This document shows positions 46,925 to 61,832 of a stretch of 64,000 nt of DNA, in pieces. The notes beneath the pieces were generated by a model, which was given only the letters and a program-made list of their open reading frames with translations, was not told where the DNA came from and did no database searches. The translations under genes were made by a program, and so were the position numbers. How positions within the stretch are numbered: the stretch's first letter is position 1; every line of letters starts with the position of its first letter. The stretch comes from Methanooceanicella nereidis (lineage in GTDB: Archaea > Halobacteriota > Methanocellia > Methanocellales > Methanocellaceae). The stretch is from assembly GCF_021023085.1 (NCBI RefSeq), contig NZ_PGCK01000005.1:124001-188000 (forward strand), read 5' to 3'.

Positions 46925-46985
46925 ATGACTATAAAGGAGAGCGGAGAGATGTTAAATATTTTGGAATTTTCTTCTATATCTATAT

Positions 46986-48027
46986 GGTTGTGCCTGACGG
47001 ATGGCAGGTAGGCACGTGACCTCACAGAAACACGGAAACACTAAAATTTTTTATATGATTTTTTAAGGGCACGAAATTCTCTAAGAATTTACTCACGAAA
47101 TCTCTAAGGCTCTAGTATCACTGTCAACGCACAAACACCTCGAACGCCCGGCTCAACGCACTAACCTCTCTAAGTCACCAACTCTAAAACAAGGCCCGAA
47201 CATTCTCCAAAGCACTAAAGTTTAATATCCCGGTTTGTGTTGTAAAAAATTTGGTGTGGTCCTGGTTTAGTATTCTTGTTATCCCCCTTCCAATGTTCTG
47301 ATCGTTGAAATTTATAAGAAGACCGAGTCTTTTTCCGCTAAGCCTTAAGTTGTTGAGTAACTGGGCTTTATGTATAGGCTAAACCAGGTCCGTGGATTTG
47401 AACTCCACTACCAGGCAGTCGTCGACCAGCAGGTCCAGGATGAAATACTCATCATCATATACAATACCGCCTACACTATTGGTATCTTAATTTGTGTCTT
47501 GACATTGAATCCTCTGCTTCTTAGTTCTTTTACCATGAATCTCTCGTAGGTCTTTTCAGGCAGCCCGACCCCAAGCCTTTTATGGATGGTGTAAGCCGAA
47601 TCCACAGTATATTTTGCTGCTGTTTCAACGATATCAGGCAGCTTATCATATTTTCTTTCCATCATGATCACCTTAACAAAACAATACTAATTTGCTATTA
47701 TTTGCAATAAAGTATTATAAATTTATCCATCAAACAAAAAAACAGGAGAACAATCATACGACAATTAATGCATAACACAAACCGGGATATTAAACTTTCG
47801 TGTTTTGGAGAATATTCGGGCTTTGTTTTAGAGTTGGTGACTTTGAGAAGGTTGGTGCGTTGAGCCGTGCGTTCGAGCTGTTAGAGCGTTGACAGTGATA
47901 CTAGAGCCTTAGAGGTTTCGTGAGCCAACTTTTGGTGTCTTTGAGCCTTAAAAATCATATAAAAAATTTTAGTGTTTCCGTGTTTCTGTGAGATTACGTG
48001 TCTACCTGCCATCCGACAGGCACAACC
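46986..48027. mobile_element. Palindromic element copy B with broken GxxExxY gene
   Basis: About 1042 bp. The left arm (46986 to about 47240) and right arm (about 47770-48027) are inverted repeats of the same family as copies A, C, D and E. Outer ends extend perfectly: TATATGGTTGTGCCTG on the left and its complement CAGGCACAACCATATA on the right. Inner ends GTGTTG and AACACAAACCGGG flank a GxxExxY pseudogene. It lies between the GT-A gene and the nucleotidyltransferase gene. Confidence 0.85.
47263..47671 (-). pseudogene. Frameshifted GxxExxY protein gene
   Basis: The first 65 codons are nearly identical to the intact copy at 54.9-55.3 kb (one or two substitutions). At about 47475 one base is missing (8 instead of 9 between two conserved blocks), shifting the frame. 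Further on a second lesion appears: where the intact copy reads CAG-ATA-CAG, this copy reads CTG-GTT-TAG, an in-frame stop. The PD-(D/E)XK residues would be lost. So this copy is very probably inactive, although its arms are well kept. Confidence 0.85.
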
Positions 48028-48073
48028 ATATATTATTCTCATAAAAATACTGTTACTGGTATGATCTTAATAT

Positions 48074-49303
48074 TCATATTTTACGGATCAGCCTGCGCCA
48101 CCGCTTAAAATGTGAAACATAAGAAGGCCTGTCGTCGAAAGTCGGGTCTGTGATCTTTACCAGGCCGTTCGACGGGAATATCATCCTGTAATACAGGCGA
48201 GTCTTTTCCATGACGCTTGCGTTTTCAGGGACTATAAGCCTGATCTTTTCCACAGTGCCGCCTTTGGCCGCATACGAAAATGCCTTACATTCATCATCCG
48301 AAGGCTCCGGCCATTTTGAAAGATCGATGAATTCTGGCGGTATATTTAGCCCGGTCCAGAGATGCGTCATTGTCAAAGCTTTCTCCATGGCCAGCCTGGC
48401 GCCGCATTTCACGCTCAATTCCTGTACTGCGGCCCAATCATCATTACCGGTGATCTGCTCGCATAAAAGGCGAATGTCATATATCCAGTTGAGCCGTATG
48501 CTGTGCCCGTGGCTGTATACAAGATGATTGACCGCATGTATCAGCGCGTCTATCGGGCATAATGTTTTGAAGGAGAGACCTTGAGAGTTTACATTTACGG
48601 CATTGTCGAAAAGCTGCCCGACGTCCACGTTCTTACTTACCATGTTGAACGTGTAAAGGTTCCAGTGAACCTCTACAGGGCGATACCTGGAAAGGTCATC
48701 GTGACAGAATATCTCTTCGCAATAACCGTTTTTAGATACCTCGAACCGTTTTTCCACACATGCATATCCCAGGCTTTCCATAATTTCGCGAGAACGAATG
48801 ACGTTTTCAGGACGGACGAGAATGTCAATGTCCCCGCTTGCCCTCAAAGCAGTGTCAGAATATATTGACCGGGCATATGCGGGACCTTTTAGAAGTAACA
48901 GGTCTATTTCCTCATAATTAAAAGCATCGAGAATTTGTCCTGTTTGCCTCCCTGCCTGATCCGAGCTTATCCTGCTCTTAAGGAAATCCATTCTTAATAC
49001 GTTCACAATATTCTCAGGAGGCTGTAATTCGGCGGGCAGCGAGTATATATTTTTGTAGACCAGCGGGGCTATGCCGTGAGTATGTAAGAATACGGCGAAC
49101 CGAACCCACTCGCTCATGGAAATATCCGGTAGGACCGGCTCACTATCTTTTAAAATGGCTATAAGATATGATAACAGACCGTCAGGAAAATTTTCCAGAG
49201 GGTCAATATGGCCGTTACGCAGCTGGAAAACATCATGGATCTTTCTGATCTCGCTCAGAGTGTCATGACCGGCGTTACCTTCACTGGACAGCGTTATCGC
49301 CAT
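48074..49303 (-). CDS. Nucleotidyltransferase-family protein (NTP_transf_5, PF14907)
   Basis: A 409-residue protein. LLLLKGPAYARSIYSD (about 136-150) and the catalytic-type GDIDILVRPE (157-166, with Asp158 and Asp160) match PF14907. EVHWNLY and ALIHAVNHLVYSHGHS follow as in the family. Known: the family is found in lasso-peptide and polysaccharide clusters; the pseudomycoidin member PsmN is reported to add hexose to a phosphorylated Ser. It overlaps the signal peptidase gene by 23 bp, so it is translationally linked to the cassette. A paralogue lies at 60.7-61.8 kb. Confidence 0.88.
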   Translation of the reverse strand: MAITLSSEGNAGHDTLSEIRKIHDVFQLRNGHIDPLENFPDGLLSYLIAILKDSEPVLPDISMSEWVRFAVFLHTHGIAPLVYKNIYSLPAELQPPENIVNVLRMDFLKSRISSDQAGRQTGQILDAFNYEEIDLLLLKGPAYARSIYSDTALRASGDIDILVRPENVIRSREIMESLGYACVEKRFEVSKNGYCEEIFCHDDLSRYRPVEVHWNLYTFNMVSKNVDVGQLFDNAVNVNSQGLSFKTLCPIDALIHAVNHLVYSHGHSIRLNWIYDIRLLCEQITGNDDWAAVQELSVKCGARLAMEKALTMTHLWTGLNIPPEFIDLSKWPEPSDDECKAFSYAAKGGTVEKIRLIVPENASVMEKTRLYYRMIFPSNGLVKITDPTFDDRPSYVSHFKRWRRLIRKI

Positions 49304-49955
49304 AACACACCGAACTCATGAAAGATCCTTTTAGAGAGTTGTGTCTATCCAGGTACTCTTCGTCGATGAACAGATCATATGGCCTGAATATTCTCCAGCT
49401 CTCGGCCCCGGGAAGACGCTTGCCCACAAGCTTTTTACCCATGAACAGCTGCATCTCCATACCTTCGGGGCGCTTGAAATGCAGGACATACATGTCCTTT
49501 TGTCCGGCCATATCCTTCTTTAATAGCGCGGGCCATATGCCGTTTATCCGGTAAACTACATAGAACACGTACGCTTTGGAAAATTTAATGAACCTGTGCC
49601 ACAGGTACGATAAGCCTCCGCGAAGGCCGCCGGATATCTTTACCAGCTTTGAGCCTCGCTCAACGAAGACGACCTGTCCTATCAGGTTATTCGGCCTGAG
49701 CACCCATTTATCAACATAGGCGTTGTTATCGCCACGCGTCTTGATCCCCTCGTCGGTGATCGAGATAATGCGATGCGCCACCTTTTTTCCCTCGTCCGGC
49801 GTAAAAAATGCGACTACGTCCCCGCATCTGATGCCCCTGTTAATGTAAGGTATAACGCAAAGCATGTCAAGATCCTTTAAAGTGGGATACATGCTCTTCC
49901 CTACGTACACCAGATTGTTTACAGGAACACCTAAATCTACACGTCCCCTGACCAT
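49281..49955 (-). CDS. S26-type signal peptidase of archaeal (Ser-His) form
   Basis: A 224-residue protein. The catalytic Ser21 lies in VGKSMYPTL, His61 in KVAHRI replaces the bacterial Lys as in archaeal/eukaryotic signal peptidases, and Asp76 lies in RGDNN. It lacks the usual N-terminal transmembrane anchor; hydrophobicity occurs only in the middle (about 125-145). The C-terminal half (from about 100) is an unusual extension. Placed between the kinase-like and nucleotidyltransferase genes, it may remove the leader of the neighbouring candidate peptide (inference). Confidence 0.85.
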   Translation of the reverse strand: MVRGRVDLGVPVNNLVYVGKSMYPTLKDLDMLCVIPYINRGIRCGDVVAFFTPDEGKKVAHRIISITDEGIKTRGDNNAYVDKWVLRPNNLIGQVVFVERGSKLVKISGGLRGGLSYLWHRFIKFSKAYVFYVVYRINGIWPALLKKDMAGQKDMYVLHFKRPEGMEMQLFMGKKLVGKRLPGAESWRIFRPYDLFIDEEYLDRHNSLKGSFMSSVCYGDNAVQ

Positions 49956-50012: not shown

Positions 50013-50918
50013 TTAAAAAATTGCTATCTCTATCTCTTCCCAGAACCTTCCGGATATGCTTACCCGAAGTTTAAATAATGGGATCTCTTTTGCTATTTCG
50101 CATGAGTTATGGAATATCGCCTCATTCAGAGACCGTGCATCGTTTTTACTAAGATTTACCCAGTAACGGTGACATGCATCCATGGCCGACCTGTAGATAA
50201 CGGAAGCCGCCGCCCCTTTCCCGACAGGAATGACTTCATCTTTCCTGGACTGTTCGAGTAAAAAGATGGCTTCTACGGGAAAATGACGGGAAACATCCCA
50301 TGTGCCGGGGCTGTTTCGTTCCAGAAAATCGCTCCATGTGGGGAAAGGATGCGCATGATAACGCCCGCTGCCGGTATCCCTGACTATCAATACTTCCTCA
50401 TCGCAGATCGTGTTCCATGGCGAAGGAATGCGGCGGCAGCATGTGGATTTACCGGTCTTCGAAGGGGCTGTGAGCAATACGCCTTTGCCGTTAAGCTCTA
50501 CAAGGCCGGCGTGAAACGGAAGACATCCTGCCTTTAAGTTTTTATTATAGAAGAATGACAGGAAATTCGCGATAAGGATTATATCGGGCTCGTGATACTC
50601 TTCCTTATAATCAACAGCACATATTATGTCGGGTACGTCTTCATGCTGCCATATTTTTATTAGCCCGATCTGGCTGTAATTCCATCCGTTTCCGGGTAGA
50701 TAGCAGGGTAATTCATCATATTTTTTTGGATCAAGACTATCTGATGTAAATTTTTCAAGATCATCGGTTATAAAATAGATATTAATGCCGTCCTCATCCG
50801 GACCGCATGCCTTTAGACGCATTATTGACGCGAATCTTTCCACCCAAGAGATGGTAGTTTTTGTAGGTATGATCCGCCAGGACCTGCCGTTACTTAATCG
50901 TAGAAGGAAAGATCTCAT
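50013..50918 (-). CDS. HPr-kinase-like P-loop protein (ScmC-type)
   Basis: A 301-residue protein. FHAGLVELNGKGVLLTAPSKTGKST (split here: FHAGLVELNGKG, then P-loop APSKTGKST at 151-159) is the HprK-related kinase pattern, with an acidic CDEEVL following at about 172-177. The first P-loop residue is Ala rather than Gly. An N-terminal domain (1-125) of unknown fold precedes it. Known: HprK-like kinases in lasso clusters phosphorylate the last Ser of the peptide. I recall a similar protein, ScmC, in the SynChlorMet cassette. It starts 14 bp after the candidate precursor's stop. Confidence 0.82.
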   Translation of the reverse strand: MRSFLLRLSNGRSWRIIPTKTTISWVERFASIMRLKACGPDEDGINIYFITDDLEKFTSDSLDPKKYDELPCYLPGNGWNYSQIGLIKIWQHEDVPDIICAVDYKEEYHEPDIILIANFLSFFYNKNLKAGCLPFHAGLVELNGKGVLLTAPSKTGKSTCCRRIPSPWNTICDEEVLIVRDTGSGRYHAHPFPTWSDFLERNSPGTWDVSRHFPVEAIFLLEQSRKDEVIPVGKGAAASVIYRSAMDACHRYWVNLSKNDARSLNEAIFHNSCEIAKEIPLFKLRVSISGRFWEEIEIAIF

Positions 50919-50932
50919 ATCAATAAAAGCAT

Positions 50933-51211
50933 TTAGCTTCCGAATGCCGCCTGGCCATTGGTACAGCCGCCAAGCCCGGTATTGCTTTGCCCGTTATCGC
51001 ATCCGAAAGTCTTGTTAGCCTGTCCTACTCCGCATCCATCTGTCGTGTTATTCTGACCTGTGCTGCATCCTCCGGACGTATTAGTATTCCCGGTATTGCA
51101 GATGCCGCCTGGATTGCTTATGCCGTTATGGCAAAGAGAACCGCCGGACTGGCCGAGGACTACGTCACTGAACTTTATCAGCTGCGGCTTTTCGTAAACT
51201 AGCTTCCCCAT
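50933..51211 (-). CDS. Candidate RiPP precursor: six Cys in 11-residue repeats
   Basis: A 92-residue protein with two parts. The leader (about 1-24, MGKLVYEKPQLIKFSDVVL then GQSGG) has a Y-x2-P-x-L motif like leaders bound by PqqD/RRE domains, and ends in Gly-Gly. The core (25-92) is Gly/Asn/Thr/Ser-rich with Cys at 27, 38, 49, 60, 71 and 83, so spacing 11, 11, 11, 11, 12. The unit is C-x-x-G-x-x-N-x3-G. The last residue is Ser. It has no transmembrane segment. Its neighbours are a kinase-like gene downstream and two radical SAM/SPASM genes and a PqqD gene upstream, beyond element D. The translation product and its modification are inferred. Confidence 0.8.
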   Translation of the reverse strand: MGKLVYEKPQLIKFSDVVLGQSGGSLCHNGISNPGGICNTGNTNTSGGCSTGQNNTTDGCGVGQANKTFGCDNGQSNTGLGGCTNGQAAFGS

Positions 51212-51326: not shown

Positions 51327-51383
51327 TTAAATAAAGATGAAGATTAAACATTTTTAGTTCTTTTTGGGGTTTTATTTTAGGTT

Positions 51384-51928
51384 ATTCTGTCCGGATGGCA
51401 GGTAGATACTAATTTCACAGAAACACGGAAACACTAAAATTTTTAAATGATTTTTTTAAGGCACGAAATCTCTAAGAACTTACTCACTAAACCTCTAAGG
51501 CTCTAGTATCACCGTCAACGCTCTAACACCTCTAACGCTCGGCTCAACGCACTAACCTCTCAAATTCACCAACGCTAAAACAAGACACGAACATTCTCCA
51601 AGGCACGAAAGTTTAATGGCCCGGTTGACGTTTCGTTTTATCGATGCCATCCTGGACTTTTTTCCTTTTTGTTAAATTGAAACCGAAACCGGGATATTGA
51701 ATTTTCGTGCCTTGGGGAGGTTCGGGGTTTGTTTTAGCGTTAGTGTATTAGAGAATTTGGTGCGTTGAGTCGAGCGTTTGGGACGTTAGTGCGTTGACGG
51801 TGATACTAGAGCCTCAGAGATTTTGTGAGTGAATTTTTGGTGCCTTTGAGACCTTAAAATTATAAAAAAAATTGTGTTTCTGTGTTTCTGTGAGGTTAGT
51901 ATCTACCTGCCATCCGACAGGTACAACC
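51384..51928. mobile_element. Palindromic element copy D (no gene)
   Basis: About 545 bp. Ends CTGTCCGGATGGCAGGTA on the left and TACCTGCCATCCGACAGGTA on the right, with the same unit order in the arms as the other copies. The centre is almost the same as in copy A (GTTGACGTTTCG, ATGCCATCCTGGACTTTTT, GAAACCGAAACCGGG), so A and D are one subfamily. It lies between the candidate precursor's promoter and the radical SAM gene, dividing the modification cassette into two transcription units. Confidence 0.85.
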
Positions 51929-51969
51929 ACAAAAACATCATCCCGAAAATGATAAAACTTTTCCAGGCA

Positions 51970-53085
51970 TCATTTATCTGGTTTTACATAAATCCTTGAC
52001 GCCGGGAATATGTCTCTATTCTTCGCTTCCTTACAGTACCAGAACGGGGCCCATATGCTCTTGCTCGAATAATAGTTCTGCGCTATGCAGCTTCCGAGGC
52101 ATATGCTTTTCATAAGGCATTCGCCGCAGACACCTTCAAGCCGCGCGGGAAGCCCCTCGCGGAGTTCGCGAAGTATCGGCTCATTTGACCATACATCTTC
52201 AAGGCGATCTTTTCCGGCTTTCCCGAATGTCAGTTCAGGCACATGCGCCCCGATCCCGCAAAGAGCATAGGTCCCGTCAGCCAGGACTCCGACGATGTTC
52301 AATATCCCGCAGACAGTGCACCCGCACCCTGTGCTCCCGAACATCTTTCCCATAGGCCTGAACGCAGGAGGCTGAGTGTAATGTAATTTTAAGAAAGTTT
52401 TTTCCGCCAGCTCGCCTTCCACCCATTTTCCAAGGCTTACCAGTTCCTCGATGCCTGAGGTCTCTCCGGCGTCATGCATTTTTTCGCCCCTTGCAGTGGG
52501 CTGTACGACGTTGAACTTTAGGCTGCTTGCGCCGAGGGATTCGGCCAGCCTGATCATATCCTCTATCTGGCCGGAATTCCTGCGCATTATGGTCATGATG
52601 ATCTCGGGCTTTATCCCTGCATTGACGAGGTTCCTTATTCCTTCCAGGGCCGCATCGAAGCATCCTTCAACGCCCCTTACCCATTCATGCGTCTCTTTAT
52701 TCGCCCCGTCGAGGCTCACGGATATGCAGCCGGGCTTACATGAGGCGATAAGCCGCACCATTTCCAGGGTGCAAAGAACGCCGTTAGTCTCTATGCAGAG
52801 AATGAGGCCGTTGTCTCGTATGATATTAATGATCTCCTGAATGTCAGGATGAAGCAGAGGCTCTCCGCCTGTCAATTTTACTCTTTGAAGACCCAATGGT
52901 TTAGCTTCTTCTATGATGGATCTAAAAAGGCTGACAGGGATGTAATTGAATTTTCCTTCTTTAGAATATTTTGGGGATATCCAGCAGTGCCGGCAGCGCA
53001 GATTGCATCCGTCCGTGAGATAAAAATATATCTGAGTCAGCGGATATGTGCGTTCGCTGGAGCCTTGCGGGATATTTTTGTGCAT
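51970..53085 (-). CDS. Radical SAM/SPASM maturase (ScmE/ScmF-like)
   Basis: A 371-residue radical SAM enzyme. The first 4Fe-4S cluster is held by Cys27, Cys31 and Cys34 (CNLRCRHC), the GGEP motif follows in KLTGGEPLLHP, and the C-terminal SPASM region has GCGCTVCG, YALCGIG, CGECLMKSICLGSC and a last Cys, for two further clusters. Such enzymes crosslink or otherwise modify ribosomal peptides. It lies 12 bp after the second SPASM gene. From memory the pair resembles ScmE and ScmF of the SynChlorMet cassette; I cannot tell which is which. Confidence 0.93.
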   Translation of the reverse strand: MHKNIPQGSSERTYPLTQIYFYLTDGCNLRCRHCWISPKYSKEGKFNYIPVSLFRSIIEEAKPLGLQRVKLTGGEPLLHPDIQEIINIIRDNGLILCIETNGVLCTLEMVRLIASCKPGCISVSLDGANKETHEWVRGVEGCFDAALEGIRNLVNAGIKPEIIMTIMRRNSGQIEDMIRLAESLGASSLKFNVVQPTARGEKMHDAGETSGIEELVSLGKWVEGELAEKTFLKLHYTQPPAFRPMGKMFGSTGCGCTVCGILNIVGVLADGTYALCGIGAHVPELTFGKAGKDRLEDVWSNEPILRELREGLPARLEGVCGECLMKSICLGSCIAQNYYSSKSIWAPFWYCKEAKNRDIFPASRIYVKPDK

Positions 53086-53097
53086 GGTCGCCCTCTT

Positions 53098-54201
53098 TTA
53101 CGTTTCCGGGATCTTTCCCCCATTCCTGAGGAATGTGCGCAGGCAGCCATCAGGATCGGGATGGTCCAGGTTTCCCGTGATATTATAAGTATTTGCGGGA
53201 CAGTTGCCGGTACAATACTTGATATACTCGCAATCACTGCATAAGTCAAAATTGTTTAACGGTATCATGCGCCTTTCGCGCAGCCTTATCATTTCGGGAT
53301 GGCGCTGCCAAATATCTATAAGCCGGTCCTCGTTTATCCTTCCAAGCTCGATCTGGCTCAATAGCTGGCACGGCACGATGACGCCGTCAGCCCGCACCGC
53401 GAGCCTTTCGAACGGGCATCCGCATCCTGTCAGATAGCCTCTGCCCTGGATGTCATTGCCCTCTTTTCGTGCTTTTTCCATTTCCATCCAGGCTTTCGCG
53501 TCGGCCAGCGGTCCGGCTGTCGCGTGTATTCTTCCCGGGTATTTTTTTGTGAGCTTTAGAAGAGCGTTCATCGCCAGCATACGGTCATTCGTATCGAGCC
53601 GTATCTTTTTCGAGTTTTGCTGGCATAGTCCCATGTATGATGCAGAATTGGTCGAGAACGTGGGAATGCCGATGTCTTCTAGTAATAATTTCGCTACGTT
53701 TTCCAGGTCCGTGACGTTTTCTTTATGGATGGTCACCCTTACCGTGACAGGGACGCCATTCTCTTTTAAGCACTTAAGCCCGTTTATCGCCTTTTGGAAA
53801 GTGCCTTTGCCGCGGTATATATCATGGATATTTTCATTAGAGCCGTCAATTGATACCTGTACGGCGTCGCATCTTTTCGCAGAGCTTAAAAAACGGGCAA
53901 TGTCTTCCGTTATTAAAGTCCCGTTCGTCAGTATTGAATACCTCATCCTGTTTTTAACGATGCCTTCTATTATCTCAAAAATATCTTTTCTGTAGAATGG
54001 CTCTCCGCCTTCGAGTACGACTCTCATCACAGAGCATTCGTTGAGCTCTTTGAAAAATTGTAGCCATTCTTCTGCCTGGAGATCATGTTTGACGTCGCCG
54101 GGGCTGCTAAAGTGGCTGCAGTAAGAGCACCGCAGGTTGCAGTCGTTGGTAACGGCGATGTCTATCGCCCTCGGCGTCCTCATGATCTTTTCGGCGGTCA
54201 T
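53098..54201 (-). CDS. Radical SAM/SPASM maturase (ScmE/ScmF-like)
   Basis: A 367-residue radical SAM enzyme. Cluster cysteines are Cys21, Cys25 and Cys28 (CNLRCSYC), with VVLEGGEPFYRKDI following. SPASM cysteines: TGCGCPFERL, VPCQLL, CSDCEYIKYCTGNCP and a last Cys in DGCLRT. It begins one base after the PqqD stop, so these two are translationally coupled. Sequence identity to the other SPASM protein is low outside motifs, suggesting different steps or different residues on the same peptide. Confidence 0.93.
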   Translation of the reverse strand: MTAEKIMRTPRAIDIAVTNDCNLRCSYCSHFSSPGDVKHDLQAEEWLQFFKELNECSVMRVVLEGGEPFYRKDIFEIIEGIVKNRMRYSILTNGTLITEDIARFLSSAKRCDAVQVSIDGSNENIHDIYRGKGTFQKAINGLKCLKENGVPVTVRVTIHKENVTDLENVAKLLLEDIGIPTFSTNSASYMGLCQQNSKKIRLDTNDRMLAMNALLKLTKKYPGRIHATAGPLADAKAWMEMEKARKEGNDIQGRGYLTGCGCPFERLAVRADGVIVPCQLLSQIELGRINEDRLIDIWQRHPEMIRLRERRMIPLNNFDLCSDCEYIKYCTGNCPANTYNITGNLDHPDPDGCLRTFLRNGGKIPET

Positions 54202-54202
54202 A

Positions 54203-54475
54203 TCATGCTTTAGAACCTACAAGGCCTCTGTTTTCAAGGTCAAGGATGAACTCTATCACGTCGTTTTTGTAACTATCGGGAACTCCCTCGCAGTTTTCCG
54301 TCAGCTCGCCGAAAACGTCTTCTACGGTGTGGTCGCCGTCGAGATGCTTCCATATGAAAACGCCTGTAGGGTTTAACCCGAATGTCTCTCCTGTGTTTGG
54401 ATCGTAAAGTAATGCCCAGTCGTCGAACTCTTCTCTGAGGACGATAGACGGGTTAGCAATAGGCCTGTCGATCAA
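54203..54475 (-). CDS. PqqD-family peptide chaperone (RRE; ScmD-like)
   Basis: A 90-residue protein of the PqqD fold: VLREEFDDWALLYDPNTGETFGLNPTGVFIW, then HTVEDVFGEL and FILDLENRGLVG, split here only to name the order of segments. PqqD proteins hold the leader of a precursor and pass it to the radical SAM enzyme. I place the start at TTG 54475, since it follows a strong GAGGGGGG site at the right distance; a longer frame reaching 54673 would include part of palindromic element C and is not believable. It leads the unit pqqD-rSAM-rSAM. Confidence 0.9.
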   Translation of the reverse strand: MIDRPIANPSIVLREEFDDWALLYDPNTGETFGLNPTGVFIWKHLDGDHTVEDVFGELTENCEGVPDSYKNDVIEFILDLENRGLVGSKA

Positions 54476-54604
54476 ATGAACCCCCCTCAATATAATGTAG
54501 ATGATAAGAATTAAACATATAAAATGATATCCATATCGATAGACTTGAAGTGACAAACTGAGTAAATTCTGTAATGTTATATTTTTCTTCGGCTTTTTGG
54601 ATAT

Positions 54605-55658
54605 GATGTTTTTGTGGTTGTGCCTGACGGATGGCAGGTAGGCACGTAACCCCACAGAAACACAGAAACACAAAATTTTTTATATGATTTTTTAAGGGCA
54701 CGAAATTCTCTAAGAGTTACTCACAAAACCTCTAAGGCTCTAGTATCACTGTCAACGCACAAACACCTCTAACGCCCGGCTCAACGCACTAACCTCTCTA
54801 AGTCACCAACGCTAAAACAAGGCCCGAACATTCTCCAAAGCACTAAAGTTTAATATCCCGGTCTGTGTTGTAAAAAATTTGCGTTTTAGTTTATTATTCT
54901 TGTTATTCCCTTTCCTATGTTCTGTTCGTTGAAATTTATCAATAGACCGAGTCTTTTTCCGCTAAGCCTTAAATAGTTGAGCAATTGTGCTTTATGTATC
55001 GGCTGTATCTGATCTGTGGATTTAAATTCTACTACCAGGCAGTCGTCGACCAGCAGGTCCAGGATGAAATACTCATCATCATACACGATACCTTCGTATG
55101 TTATTGGTATCTTGATCTGTGTCTTGACATTGAACCCTCTGCTTCTTAGTTCTTTTACCATGAATCTCTCGTAGGTCTTTTCAGGCAGCCCGACCCCAAG
55201 CCTTTTATGGATCGTATAAGCCGAATCCACAGTATATTTTGCTGCTGTTTCCACAATATCAGGTAACTTCTCGTATTTTCTTTCCAACATGATCACCTTA
55301 ACAAAACAATACTAATTTGCTATTATTTGCAATAAAGTATTATAAGTTTATCCATCAGACTAAAAAAGTGAACAGGTATACGATCATTGAACAACACAAA
55401 CCGCGCCATTAAACTTTAGTGTTTTGGAGAATGTTCGTGCCTTGTTTTAGAGTTGGTGACTTAGAGAGGTTAGTGCGTTGAGCCGAGCATTAGAGGTGTT
55501 AGAGCGTTGACGGTGATACTAGAGCCTTAGAGACTTTTGTGAGTAATTTTTTGTGATTTTAGAGACTTTAAAAATCATATAAAAAATTTTTGTGTTTCCG
55601 TGTTTTTGTGAGGTCACGTGTCTACCTGCCATCCGTCAGGCACAACCACAAAAACATC
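54605..55658. mobile_element. Palindromic element copy C with intact GxxExxY gene
   Basis: About 1054 bp. The arms (54605 to about 54868, and about 55393 to 55658) are inverted repeats. The outermost 37 bases are perfect complements (GATGTTTTTGTGGTTGTGCC... on the left). The inner ends GTCTGTGTTG and CAACACAAACCG enclose one gene on the minus strand. This is the best candidate for a complete, active form of the family. It lies between the PqqD gene's promoter and the ABC transporter gene. Confidence 0.88.
54886..55296 (-). CDS. GxxExxY protein (PD-(D/E)XK nuclease superfamily)
   Basis: A 136-residue protein. The naming motif G-x2-E-x2-Y is GLPEKTY (Gly36, Glu39, Tyr42). The nuclease-like core shows Asp80 in FILDLLVDD and Glu90-x-Lys92 in VVEFKS, matching PD-(D/E)XK (PF13366, TIGR04256). 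No catalytic activity is established for the family in my knowledge. The gene sits in the centre of element C and a broken copy sits in element B, which ties this protein to the palindromic repeats. Shine-Dalgarno AAGGTGATC precedes the start. Confidence 0.92.
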   Translation of the reverse strand: MIMLERKYEKLPDIVETAAKYTVDSAYTIHKRLGVGLPEKTYERFMVKELRSRGFNVKTQIKIPITYEGIVYDDEYFILDLLVDDCLVVEFKSTDQIQPIHKAQLLNYLRLSGKRLGLLINFNEQNIGKGITRIIN

Positions 55659-55659
55659 A

Positions 55660-55851
55660 CATTCAAAAAAAACCGAAGAATTAAAAATCAGGTGCTTCCA
55701 GAGTGATATATTTAAGTCTTATCAACAAGTATACCTTGATAACCGGCCTGTCATAAATAAGGCCGGCCAGTGTGCGGGGGTATACGGGGATGTTGAAGAG
55801 CTTATTGACATATATCGTAAGGTCAATGAGCGTGACTGGCGTCCATATTAA
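55660..55851 (+). CDS. Possible C-terminal gene fragment next to element C
   Basis: The frame is open from inside the right end of element C and ends at 55851. The last 50 residues look protein-like (FKSYQQVYLDNRPVINKAG, then DVEELIDIYRKVNERDWRPY) rather than random. There is no start codon of its own outside the element, so it may be the tail of a gene cut by the insertion, or chance. It overlaps the region where the ABC transporter could begin in another frame. An inverted repeat ACCGGCCT/AGGCCGGC occurs at about 55742-55767. Confidence 0.3.
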   Translation, partial: HSKKTEELKIRCFQSDIFKSYQQVYLDNRPVINKAGQCAGVYGDVEELIDIYRKVNERDWRPY

Positions 55852-57610
55852 AGATATTTTTCATACCCCGAAAAGTTCAGATAATGAGAAGTTCAAATGG
55901 AAAGATCTCATATTCTTTTTCCGGTTCGTTAAGCCCGTCTGGAAGCTCGGTGCTTTATCCATCATTTTATCTATCCTCATAAGCGCCATTCAGTCGATAA
56001 TGCCTATGAGCACTAAGGTGTTCATCGATTTTGTCATAATGAAGAACGGCTTTGACACCGTCGAAGGCTTTCTGGCGTCTTTTGGCATGGGAACGCTTGC
56101 TCCGGGCATTATAGAGCTGTTGAGCTCTTTGAATTTTGTCATACTGGCCCTGATAGTCCTTGGCCTGACCTCGGGGCTCTCGGGAATATTGAAGGACTAC
56201 CTTAATACGAAATATACGCAGCGGATCACGTTTAACGTGCAGACGACGCTGTTTGACCGCGTGCTGAGGTTCCCGATGTCGTTCTTTAAGGAGAAGCAGA
56301 CTGGATATCTTGTGTCGAGGGTGCAGAATGACGTGGGCTCCGTGCAGTATTTCTTCTCCAATATCATCTCATCTGCCGTCTCAAGCAGTGTGTCGCTTGT
56401 GTTGGGCTTATTGATCATACTGGCCATTAGCACTAAGATAACGCTTTTAGTCGTGCTCCTTGTTCCTGTTTACCTGATAGTGAGCGTGTTCTTTTCGGGC
56501 AGGATGAGACGGGTCAGCTATGATGAGATGGAATCGTCGGCGAATGTCTCGAAGGATCTCCAGGAGATATTGTCGGGCGTCGAGGTCGTGAAGTCGTATA
56601 CGAGCGAGGAGAGGGAAGTCAGGAAGGTTTCGGAGAAGATCGATAAGGTCATTAAGACGAGGATGAAGAGCACGATGATCTCATCTTTTTCCGGCTTTAT
56701 CATGAGAGGCGTTCAGTCGGTGTTCCTTTTACTGGTCATGTGGTTCGGTGCCATAGAGATACAGAATGGCGCGATGACTATCGGGGATTATGTCGCGTTT
56801 ATCGCTTACGTGGCGTTTCTTTCCGGGTCTGTTGGAAGGCTGTTCTCGTCTTACATTTCGCTACAGACTATACTGGCGTCGATGGACAGGCTGAAAGAAA
56901 TGTTCAGTATTGTGCCGGAGCATGAAAATGCAGATAGGCAGCTTATTGTCCCGAATGATTGTAAAGGCGGCATCAAGTTTGAGAATGTAACGTTTTCGTA
57001 TGACGACAAAGATGCTGTTATTAAAGATCTCAACCTGGAAGTAAGATCCGGGGGATCTGTCGCATTGATAGGGCCGAGCGGGTCGGGAAAGACGACAATA
57101 GTGAACTTAATCTTAAAACTTTATACTCCGGGATCAGGCGCGATATACCTGGATGGTGTCGATCTTAGAGATATTGATACGGAATGGCTGAGGAAGCAGA
57201 TCGCAATAGTGTCGCAGGATGTTTTTCTTTTTGACGATACGATAGAGAATAATATCAGGTACGGGATGCCTTCGGCAAGCAGGGAAGAGGTAATTGAGGC
57301 CGCGAAGAAGGCGCATATACATGAGTTCATAGAGTCCCTTCCCGATAGCTATGCTACGATCATAGGGGAGAGAGGGGTGAAACTCTCCGGAGGGCAGAGG
57401 CAGAGGATAGCGATAGCGAGGGCGTTCCTGAAGGATGCGAGGATACTGCTGCTGGATGAGCCGACGTCTGCACTCGATACGGAGACTGAGGATAGTATTA
57501 AAGGGTCCTTAAGGGAACTGATAGATAACAGGACGACATTTGTCATATCGCATAAATCATCGTTGATCGATATTACGGGAAATATGCTTGTAGTTAAAAT
57601 AGGAACTTAG
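55826..57610 (+). CDS. ABC exporter, fused membrane and ATPase domains
   Basis: About 594 residues. An N-terminal six-helix membrane domain (about 25-320) is followed by an ATPase domain with Walker A GPSGSGKTT, Q-loop VSQDVFLFDD, signature LSGGQRQR, Walker B ILLLDEPTSALD and switch His in ISHKSS. No C39 peptidase domain. Type IV exporters of this form move lipids, peptides or polysaccharides. Located beside the modification cassette, it could export its product (inference). ATG 55826 is preferred; ATG 55790 (after GGGGG) and GTG 55772 are in frame. Confidence 0.92.
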   Translation: MSVTGVHIKDIFHTPKSSDNEKFKWKDLIFFFRFVKPVWKLGALSIILSILISAIQSIMPMSTKVFIDFVIMKNGFDTVEGFLASFGMGTLAPGIIELLSSLNFVILALIVLGLTSGLSGILKDYLNTKYTQRITFNVQTTLFDRVLRFPMSFFKEKQTGYLVSRVQNDVGSVQYFFSNIISSAVSSSVSLVLGLLIILAISTKITLLVVLLVPVYLIVSVFFSGRMRRVSYDEMESSANVSKDLQEILSGVEVVKSYTSEEREVRKVSEKIDKVIKTRMKSTMISSFSGFIMRGVQSVFLLLVMWFGAIEIQNGAMTIGDYVAFIAYVAFLSGSVGRLFSSYISLQTILASMDRLKEMFSIVPEHENADRQLIVPNDCKGGIKFENVTFSYDDKDAVIKDLNLEVRSGGSVALIGPSGSGKTTIVNLILKLYTPGSGAIYLDGVDLRDIDTEWLRKQIAIVSQDVFLFDDTIENNIRYGMPSASREEVIEAAKKAHIHEFIESLPDSYATIIGERGVKLSGGQRQRIAIARAFLKDARILLLDEPTSALDTETEDSIKGSLRELIDNRTTFVISHKSSLIDITGNMLVVKIGT

Positions 57611-60564: not shown

Positions 60565-60678
60565 TTATGTTAAAAACTCAGTAATGTACATAATCCAGAT
60601 CGCCACCATAGTGCTGATAATAGAAAATGGAATGGTTACCCAAGTATAACGGAATTCAAGGAATAGAGGATATTTCAC
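60565..60678 (-). CDS. Candidate single-span membrane microprotein (37 aa)
   Basis: A GTG-started frame that overlaps the nucleotidyltransferase stop by four bases (GTGA), which is usual for coupled genes. It reads MKYPLFLEFRYTWVTIPF and continues with one hydrophobic helix. It resembles the 32-residue frame at 46.1 kb in having LFL-x2-RY before the helix. No Shine-Dalgarno site of its own, as expected for coupled translation. Confidence 0.45.
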   Translation of the reverse strand: MKYPLFLEFRYTWVTIPFSIISTMVAIWIMYITEFLT

Positions 60679-61832
60679 TTTCTTATTCGGTCATATATGT
60701 AATCCATACCAACGTTTAATAATATGTGAGCTTTTTTGGCCATACTAAATGATGCCGGCCATTTTAGCTTCATCGATCTAAATGTTCTTTTGCTATCCTG
60801 CAGTACATAAGAATACGCTAGAACCTCGTTTTTTGTCGGCTCCGGCCATTTTGAAAAATCATCGAAATGCGATGGTATTTTTAATCCGGTCCATTTAGTG
60901 GTCATGATCAAAGAATTCTCTAAAGCCATTCTTGCGCAGGTTTCTACGGATCTTTTTTGTAATTTTATCCAGTCGTCCTCTTTCAATCTTTTACAGAGCA
61001 GATCGACATCTAAGATCCAGCTTAACTTTACTTCCCTGCAATGGATGAAGCCCATATGTAACGCAGAATATATCAGAGCATCGACAGTATTTAATGTCCG
61101 GAACTTCATATCTTTACTATCTATCAGATCAGACCTGTCATATAGCTGCTTAAAATCCATTTTACCTAAAATGGAATACGGGTGTAGATCCCAGTGTATC
61201 TCCACAGGACGACACTTCAGGTCGTTTTTATGGAGGAACTGTTCTTCATAGTACCAGTCCCGGGAAATATCATACCTCTTTTTCAAACAGTCATATCCAA
61301 GCCCTTCCATCGCGACTCTTGAACGCGGCATATCTTCAGGCTTTATTAAGAGGTCGATATCATTGTATGACCTGGAAGCAGTCTGAGGATAGACCCCGTA
61401 TGCCAGTCCCGGCCCTTTTAATACCAGGACGTCTATTCCTTCGCTTTCAAATCTGTGGAGAATATATTTTAGCTGGCCTTCGACCTGTAATGATATTGCG
61501 GCACTATTCATGTATTTTAATCTTATATTATCCATTATGGTTTTAGACGGAAGATAAAGCGAGGGCATTTCCTTTAGTTTCCAGTAAATGAAGGGCGTTA
61601 TCCTTTGTTCATCCAGTAATGACAGAAAAGAATACCATTGTTCTAATGGCACATCGGGAGCCTCAACCGGCTCGTTTTGAAGGATCGATATAACATAATT
61701 TAGCAGTTCATCGGAGACATTTAGAATTTCATTTCTTTTTATGCCGTAAAGCGTGAACTTTTCATGTATCGCCTTAATATCATCTAGTTTTGTAGGATAA
61801 GAGTCGATCATTCCAGGCGTGTAATCTTCCAT
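60675..61832 (-). CDS. Nucleotidyltransferase-family protein (NTP_transf_5, PF14907)
   Basis: A 385-residue paralogue of the protein at 48.1 kb. LVLKGPGLAYGVYPQT (137-151) and SYNDIDLLIKPED (155-167, with Asp158 and Asp160) align with the other copy at the same residue numbers. CRPVEIHWDLHPY and ALIYSALHMGFIHCRE also match. Substrate unknown. It is flanked by a microprotein frame downstream and the DUF354 gene upstream rather than by the peptide cassette, which suggests that the two copies serve different acceptors. Confidence 0.88.
   Translation of the reverse strand: MEDYTPGMIDSYPTKLDDIKAIHEKFTLYGIKRNEILNVSDELLNYVISILQNEPVEAPDVPLEQWYSFLSLLDEQRITPFIYWKLKEMPSLYLPSKTIMDNIRLKYMNSAAISLQVEGQLKYILHRFESEGIDVLVLKGPGLAYGVYPQTASRSYNDIDLLIKPEDMPRSRVAMEGLGYDCLKKRYDISRDWYYEEQFLHKNDLKCRPVEIHWDLHPYSILGKMDFKQLYDRSDLIDSKDMKFRTLNTVDALIYSALHMGFIHCREVKLSWILDVDLLCKRLKEDDWIKLQKRSVETCARMALENSLIMTTKWTGLKIPSHFDDFSKWPEPTKNEVLAYSYVLQDSKRTFRSMKLKWPASFSMAKKAHILLNVGMDYIYDRIRK

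Follow-up and report, generated by a model that had tools for sequence, protein, structure and literature searches.

What is the product of a reading frame of 92 codons with six regularly placed cysteines that lies in Methanooceanicella nereidis among genes for two radical SAM/SPASM proteins, a PqqD-like protein and a kinase-like protein? A preliminary description of this DNA proposed a precursor of a ribosomally synthesised and post-translationally modified peptide (RiPP). We examined the reading frame, its neighbours in the 64,000-nucleotide stretch of DNA analysed here (the window) and related loci in other genomes.

The precursor reading frame

The frame occupies positions 50933-51211 (-) of the window, starts with ATG and codes for 92 amino acids; no strong ribosome-binding site was seen by eye ahead of the ATG. 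The leader (aa 1-24, 51140..51211, (-)) carries a Y-x2-P-x-L motif, YEKPQL at aa 6-11, and ends with Gly-Gly at aa 23-24. Phosphorylated lasso peptides have leaders of the same Y-x2-P-x-L type. The core (aa 25-92 plus the stop codon, 50933..51139, (-)) holds six C-x-x-G units with Cys at 27, 38, 49, 60, 71 and 83, nine residues following the last Cys.

The leader and the Cys positions are as initially described, while two details of the core had been overstated. The Cys period was said to be exactly 11 residues, which is true of the first four spacings, the last one being 12. All six units were said to read C-x-x-G-x-x-N-x3-G: C-x-x-G does occur in 6/6 units, but the extension to C-x-x-G-x-x-N is missing from unit 6, and the full form is limited to the four units 2-5. 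Neither the number of C-x-x-G motifs nor the even spacing is due to chance, as among 20,000 shuffles of the core six C-x-x-G motifs occurred in 3 and Cys intervals differing by no more than one residue in 5.

Scanning of the protein with Pfam and NCBIfam gave no match at E<=1, and a PDB search with the precursor profile (see below) returned weak chance matches only. Since the protein matches no NCBIfam family, it does not match any curated SCIFF model, and SCIFF was rejected as a class. A lasso peptide was rejected as well: no lasso cyclase or B-type leader peptidase was found among the window neighbours at 45-63 kb.

The Scm cassette

The two radical SAM/SPASM, PqqD and kinase-like neighbours pointed out in the preliminary description are ScmF, ScmE, ScmD and ScmC, each exceeding its NCBIfam cut-off, and the assignment to the SynChlorMet (Scm) cassette type made there is thereby borne out. 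ScmC, an HPr-kinase-like protein, is encoded at 50013..50918 (-) (TIGR04249, 287 bits, cut-off 125). ScmF (51970..53085, (-); TIGR04251, 586 bits, cut-off 400) and ScmE (53098..54201, (-); TIGR04250, 595 bits, cut-off 400) are the radical SAM/SPASM proteins predicted to modify the core. ScmD at 54212..54460 (-) is a PqqD-like predicted leader-binding domain (TIGR04248, 121 bits, cut-off 100; Pfam PqqD, E=1.7e-15). The TIGR04248 match covers aa 72-154 of the listed reading frame 54203-54673, which extends too far upstream, into a repeat element.

Three further genes, absent from the preliminary description, accompany these. An S26-type peptidase with a conserved C-terminal extension, a candidate leader peptidase, is encoded at 49281..49955 (-) (TIGR02228, 53.9 bits, cut-off 51.85), and an NTP_transf_5 protein at 48074..49303 (-) (PF14907, E=1.2e-49). 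An ABC exporter (55772..57610, (+); PF00664 and PF00005) is transcribed divergently from the other cassette genes and is a likely, though not proven, member of the cassette. A second NTP_transf_5 protein is encoded at 60675-61832 (-) (E=1.2e-44), about 11 kb from the first.

Three copies of the repeat element, at 46976-48047, 51369-51940 and 54606-55667, bracket and split the cassette. The outer copies (about 1.06 kb) have inverted copies of about 260 bp at both ends and a small PDDEXK_3 gene, which is broken in the 47265-47742 region and intact at 54886-55296; the middle copy, located between the precursor gene and ScmF, is devoid of this gene. The 54606-55667 element has 155 matches in its own genome. 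Those listed fall at about 40 sites by hand count, most of which seem to be palindromes without a gene, made up of two arms of about 250 bp, with three full-length matches. This pattern suggests a family of mobile elements that includes copies without the gene.

Relation to ScmA

The idea of a precursor for the Scm cassette is already known, and NCBIfam holds a model for it, ScmA (TIGR04252). The window precursor is missed by this model: there is no match at E<=1, let alone one reaching 35 bits. A genome of the same family, G002, carries the cassette too, and its precursor reaches 64.7 bits with TIGR04252. This agrees, as far as tested, with the link to Methanocella made in the preliminary description. 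The G002 precursor belongs to the same cassette (ScmC-F), occupies the same place between ScmF and ScmC and has a leader alignable to that of the window protein (41% over 39 aa), but comprises 60 aa and three units as compared to 92 aa and six units. The window protein is thus a longer ScmA relative outside TIGR04252, in a known but uncharacterised cassette. A search of the open-licence literature for papers naming the Scm cassette or its finished peptide found none.

Homologous precursors and their distribution

Scanning of genome contigs for ScmF yielded 27 loci. Sulfate reducers and other anaerobes account for most of them, and Nitrospirae, Aminicenantes, Brocadiaceae, Chlorobiaceae and one Methanotrichaceae archaeon are represented. 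The last locus (L044) is the same place as a match found in genome G280 of the window's own phylum. ScmF exceeds its cut-off in 7/393 genomes of this phylum, in 14/395 genomes of the phylum of genome G396 and in 4/198 of the phylum of genome G395. Archaeal sequences do not form one clade in the ScmF tree: many of its forks are weak, but those branches that are well supported require three or more label changes. Since archaeal ScmF is not one clade, the simple reading suggested by the tree is transfer between domains.

Precursors were sought as reading frames in which the leader motif precedes two or more C-x-x-G. This rule gave 54 matches in the 517 kb lying within 5 kb of ScmF, of which 52 precursors in 42 loci were kept and two (L104 3541-4017 and L115 12876-13403) were left out as spurious by eye. 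Farther than 5 kb from ScmF (351 kb) there were four matches, one real-looking and three spurious; shuffles gave 0-6 matches each, and there were none in 93 kb surrounding SPASM genes other than those of Scm. At E<=0.01 TIGR04252 detects only 18/52 of the collected precursors, so the precursor family is much wider than this model.

With a profile built from the other 51 precursors the window protein ranked first among 1,423 window reading frames at E=3.3e-10 (the next at 0.06) with HMMER filters off, nothing being reported with default filters; a similar profile of the leader and first unit gave E=3.3e-9. The window precursor is therefore recovered as a member of this wider ScmA-like family. 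The full precursor profile matched 7/393 genomes of the phylum at E<=1e-6, all among the eight with ScmF (E<=1e-100), and 0/385 genomes lacking ScmF; as the profile contains the precursors of the seven matched genomes, the informative part is the lack of matches in the remaining 385. The sole match in the genome of the window is the window precursor itself. With such homologues beside the same enzymes elsewhere, and with this co-occurrence with ScmF, the proposal that the 50933-51211 frame codes for a RiPP precursor can be regarded as nearly certain.

Cassette content was tabulated for the 32 well-covered loci, those extending 6 kb or more to either side. ScmD and ScmE/F (ScmE and ScmF not being separated by profile) are present in all 32, ScmC in 29, NTP_transf_5 in 25, S26 in 24 and ABC in 22. 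The first rule found a precursor in 28/32 of these loci, or 29 after L109 was added, a Chlorobi-type locus with two near-identical additional precursors built of C-x3-G units; in L048, L108 and L115 the search rules found none. In L035 (4927-6651) a second set of ScmD, ScmF and precursor lies beside the main cassette, without an adjoining ScmE.

The conserved unit

Across the 52 precursors, which have 2-14 Cys each, the unit can be written as C-x(2,3)-G-x-x-A. Gly stands at +3 from 253 of the 292 family Cys and at +4 from 22 more. The third residue past this Gly is Ala in 52%, Pro in 16% and Val in 8% of cases, Ala being commonest for both Gly positions. Neighbouring Cys are mostly 9-12 residues apart, with a mode of 10, so the 11-residue period, earlier taken for the key feature, is not conserved; what the family conserves is the C-x(2,3)-G-x-x-A unit. 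The last Cys is followed by 6-8 residues in 44/52 precursors. Every Cys is thus followed by a full unit, the last one by little more, and the most likely place for any bonding partner is therefore downstream of the Cys concerned.

Two groups of precursors stand out. The two from locus L098 (7345-7704 and 8938-9309) each contain 14 Cys, many of them outside the unit, and differ from the other family members in having CC pairs and a C-terminal Cys. Loci L028, L041, L043, L053 and L100 form a subgroup with long precursors of 7-12 units, all but one of which are on the strand opposite to ScmF; most of their leaders end with A-[YF]-A. No S26 match is in range of these five loci, and the subgroup may use another leader peptidase.

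The modifying enzymes and the expected bond

Both enzymes have intact Fe-S residues: the CxxxCxxC motif and seven SPASM Cys are invariant in 44 ScmE homologues and in 53 ScmF homologues. The best PDB relative of ScmE is the sactisynthase SkfB (E=4e-22). That of ScmF is the decarboxylase BlsE, and in NCBIfam the families matching ScmF best after its own are haem-pathway SPASM enzymes. Given that ScmF is nearest to haem-pathway enzymes and a decarboxylase, ScmE and ScmF may not be doing the same thing, and one of the pair may have another role.

The closest precedent for the unit is streptosactin (GggA, GggB), where a SPASM enzyme acts on an un-nested Cys-x-x-Gly arrangement and S-C-alpha bonds were reported for Cys31-Gly34 and Cys25-Ser28 (PMC8172795). 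The same spacing is found in 6/6 window units and at 253/292 family Cys, and the same bond is predicted. Streptosactin differs in being a 14-mer with two rings made by one radical enzyme, whereas the Scm cassette has two radical enzymes and a PqqD protein, and Scm precursors mostly have more units. A thioether pathway with a pair of radical SAM enzymes is known from thuricin CD, where both TrnC and TrnD are needed and were reported to act as a complex (PMC12093266), although thuricin CD consists of two partner peptides of sactibiotic type and the precursors differ.

The best overall explanation, to which we would give a probability of about 0.6, is an Scm RiPP pathway forming one Cys-Gly thioether ring per unit. 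A small ring of this kind is suggested because the cluster Cys of ScmE and ScmF are intact, the C-x-x-G geometry is that of streptosactin and thuricin CD sets a two-enzyme precedent. By analogy with these systems, one thioether per unit is probable; Gly as its acceptor falls slightly short of even odds. The aberrant Cys pattern of the L098 precursors and the three well-covered loci with no precursor count against this explanation.

The same precursor could instead carry its thioether on the residue three past Gly (Ala, Pro or Val; in the window protein Asn) or on a beta carbon, as in ranthipeptides, with Gly serving as a turn only. Freyrasin and other ranthipeptides also have several in-line Cys motifs with an acceptor downstream of each Cys, and a ranthipeptide enzyme accepts Cys-Xn-Asp with n=0-6 (PMC9413430); the preference for Ala at this position, which persists in C-x3-G units, fits such a scheme. 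However, the position varies (Ala, Pro, Val, Asp, Asn) while Gly is near-invariant, Pro would be an unusual thioether acceptor, and the last unit of L110, CVTLGT, keeps Gly but ends before the residue in question. These points make a bond beyond Gly unlikely. The freyrasin type proper, with its Asp/Glu acceptor in C-x3-D/E, does not fit: this motif is absent from the Scm core, where position +4 is mainly Ser, Thr or Gly.

It is less probable still that the radical enzymes catalyse some reaction different from crosslinking (e.g., epimerisation, C-C bond formation or decarboxylation), with the Cys binding metal or forming disulfides. The likeness of ScmF to haem-pathway enzymes and BlsE leans this way, as does the resemblance of ScmE by NCBIfam profile score to WgkB, the chemistry of which we take to be C-C linking, but chemistry is not decided by how SPASM families score against each other's profiles. 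Other findings speak against it: in every unit conservation is highest at Cys and Gly, and conserved Trp, Lys or Tyr are absent from the core. The Cys may also be modified without crosslinking. A small beta-solenoid or other structural repeat protein in place of a RiPP precursor, envisaged earlier from the regular 11-residue spacing, can practically be dismissed, as the spacing varies among homologues, the AlphaFold2 model (computed from one sequence only) has a pLDDT of 40 and no repeat fold, and the precursors are tightly linked to SPASM and PqqD genes.

Leader removal and tailoring

The S26-type protein has invariant H61, D76 and D82, and the Ser of its GxSM box is present in every aligned row reaching that far, some rows being trimmed at a downstream Met. 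Its model is confident (pLDDT 84) and has the human signal peptidase complex as the best PDB match (E=4.6e-4), though at a low TM of 0.34. A-x-G or A-x-A occurs within the last ten leader residues of 31/52 precursors (mean 11, maximum 21 in shuffles), a small-residue pattern resembling the sites of signal peptidases. Against cleavage by the S26-type protein, the leader of the window precursor has no A-x-G and ends with GQSGGSL before the first Cys, and the subgroup of L028 and its kin has no S26 gene in range.

ScmC retains the Walker A motif in 33/33 homologues. HPr-kinase-like and nucleotidyltransferase genes also occur together in the RiPP clusters of phosphorylated lasso peptides such as paeninodin and pseudomycoidin, and modify some lasso peptides (PMC8498205); in contrast to these clusters, no lasso cyclase is seen among the Scm cassette genes. 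On account of this precedent, phosphorylation is a reasonable guess, but no more.

Proposed pathway and its implications

Gene content, homology, co-occurrence, unit structure, the leader motif and the intact Fe-S and protease residues are established by the sequences themselves. We propose that ScmD would bind the Y-x2-P-x-L leader and present the peptide to ScmE and ScmF, which would work through the core one unit at a time; each C-x(2,3)-G unit would most likely receive a single un-nested thioether ring linking the Cys sulfur to the Gly alpha carbon. A role in attaching phosphate or sugar-phosphate to Ser/Thr is possible for ScmC and the NTP_transf_5 protein. The cassette S26-type peptidase would remove the leader, presumably by a cut a short way ahead of the first Cys, and secretion of the product would fall to the ABC exporter.

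We tentatively speculate, at clearly less than even odds, that Scm products constitute a RiPP class of their own, common to archaea and bacteria of anaerobic communities: a pair of radical SAM enzymes would build chains of as many as a dozen or so small un-nested Cys-Gly thioether rings, and kinase-like tailoring and an S26-type leader peptidase would complete the pathway. Now that the unit and the leader are defined, and a candidate leader peptidase and numerous peptides for experiments are available, the chemistry of the product is directly testable, and testing it would tell whether archaea make sactipeptide-like products.
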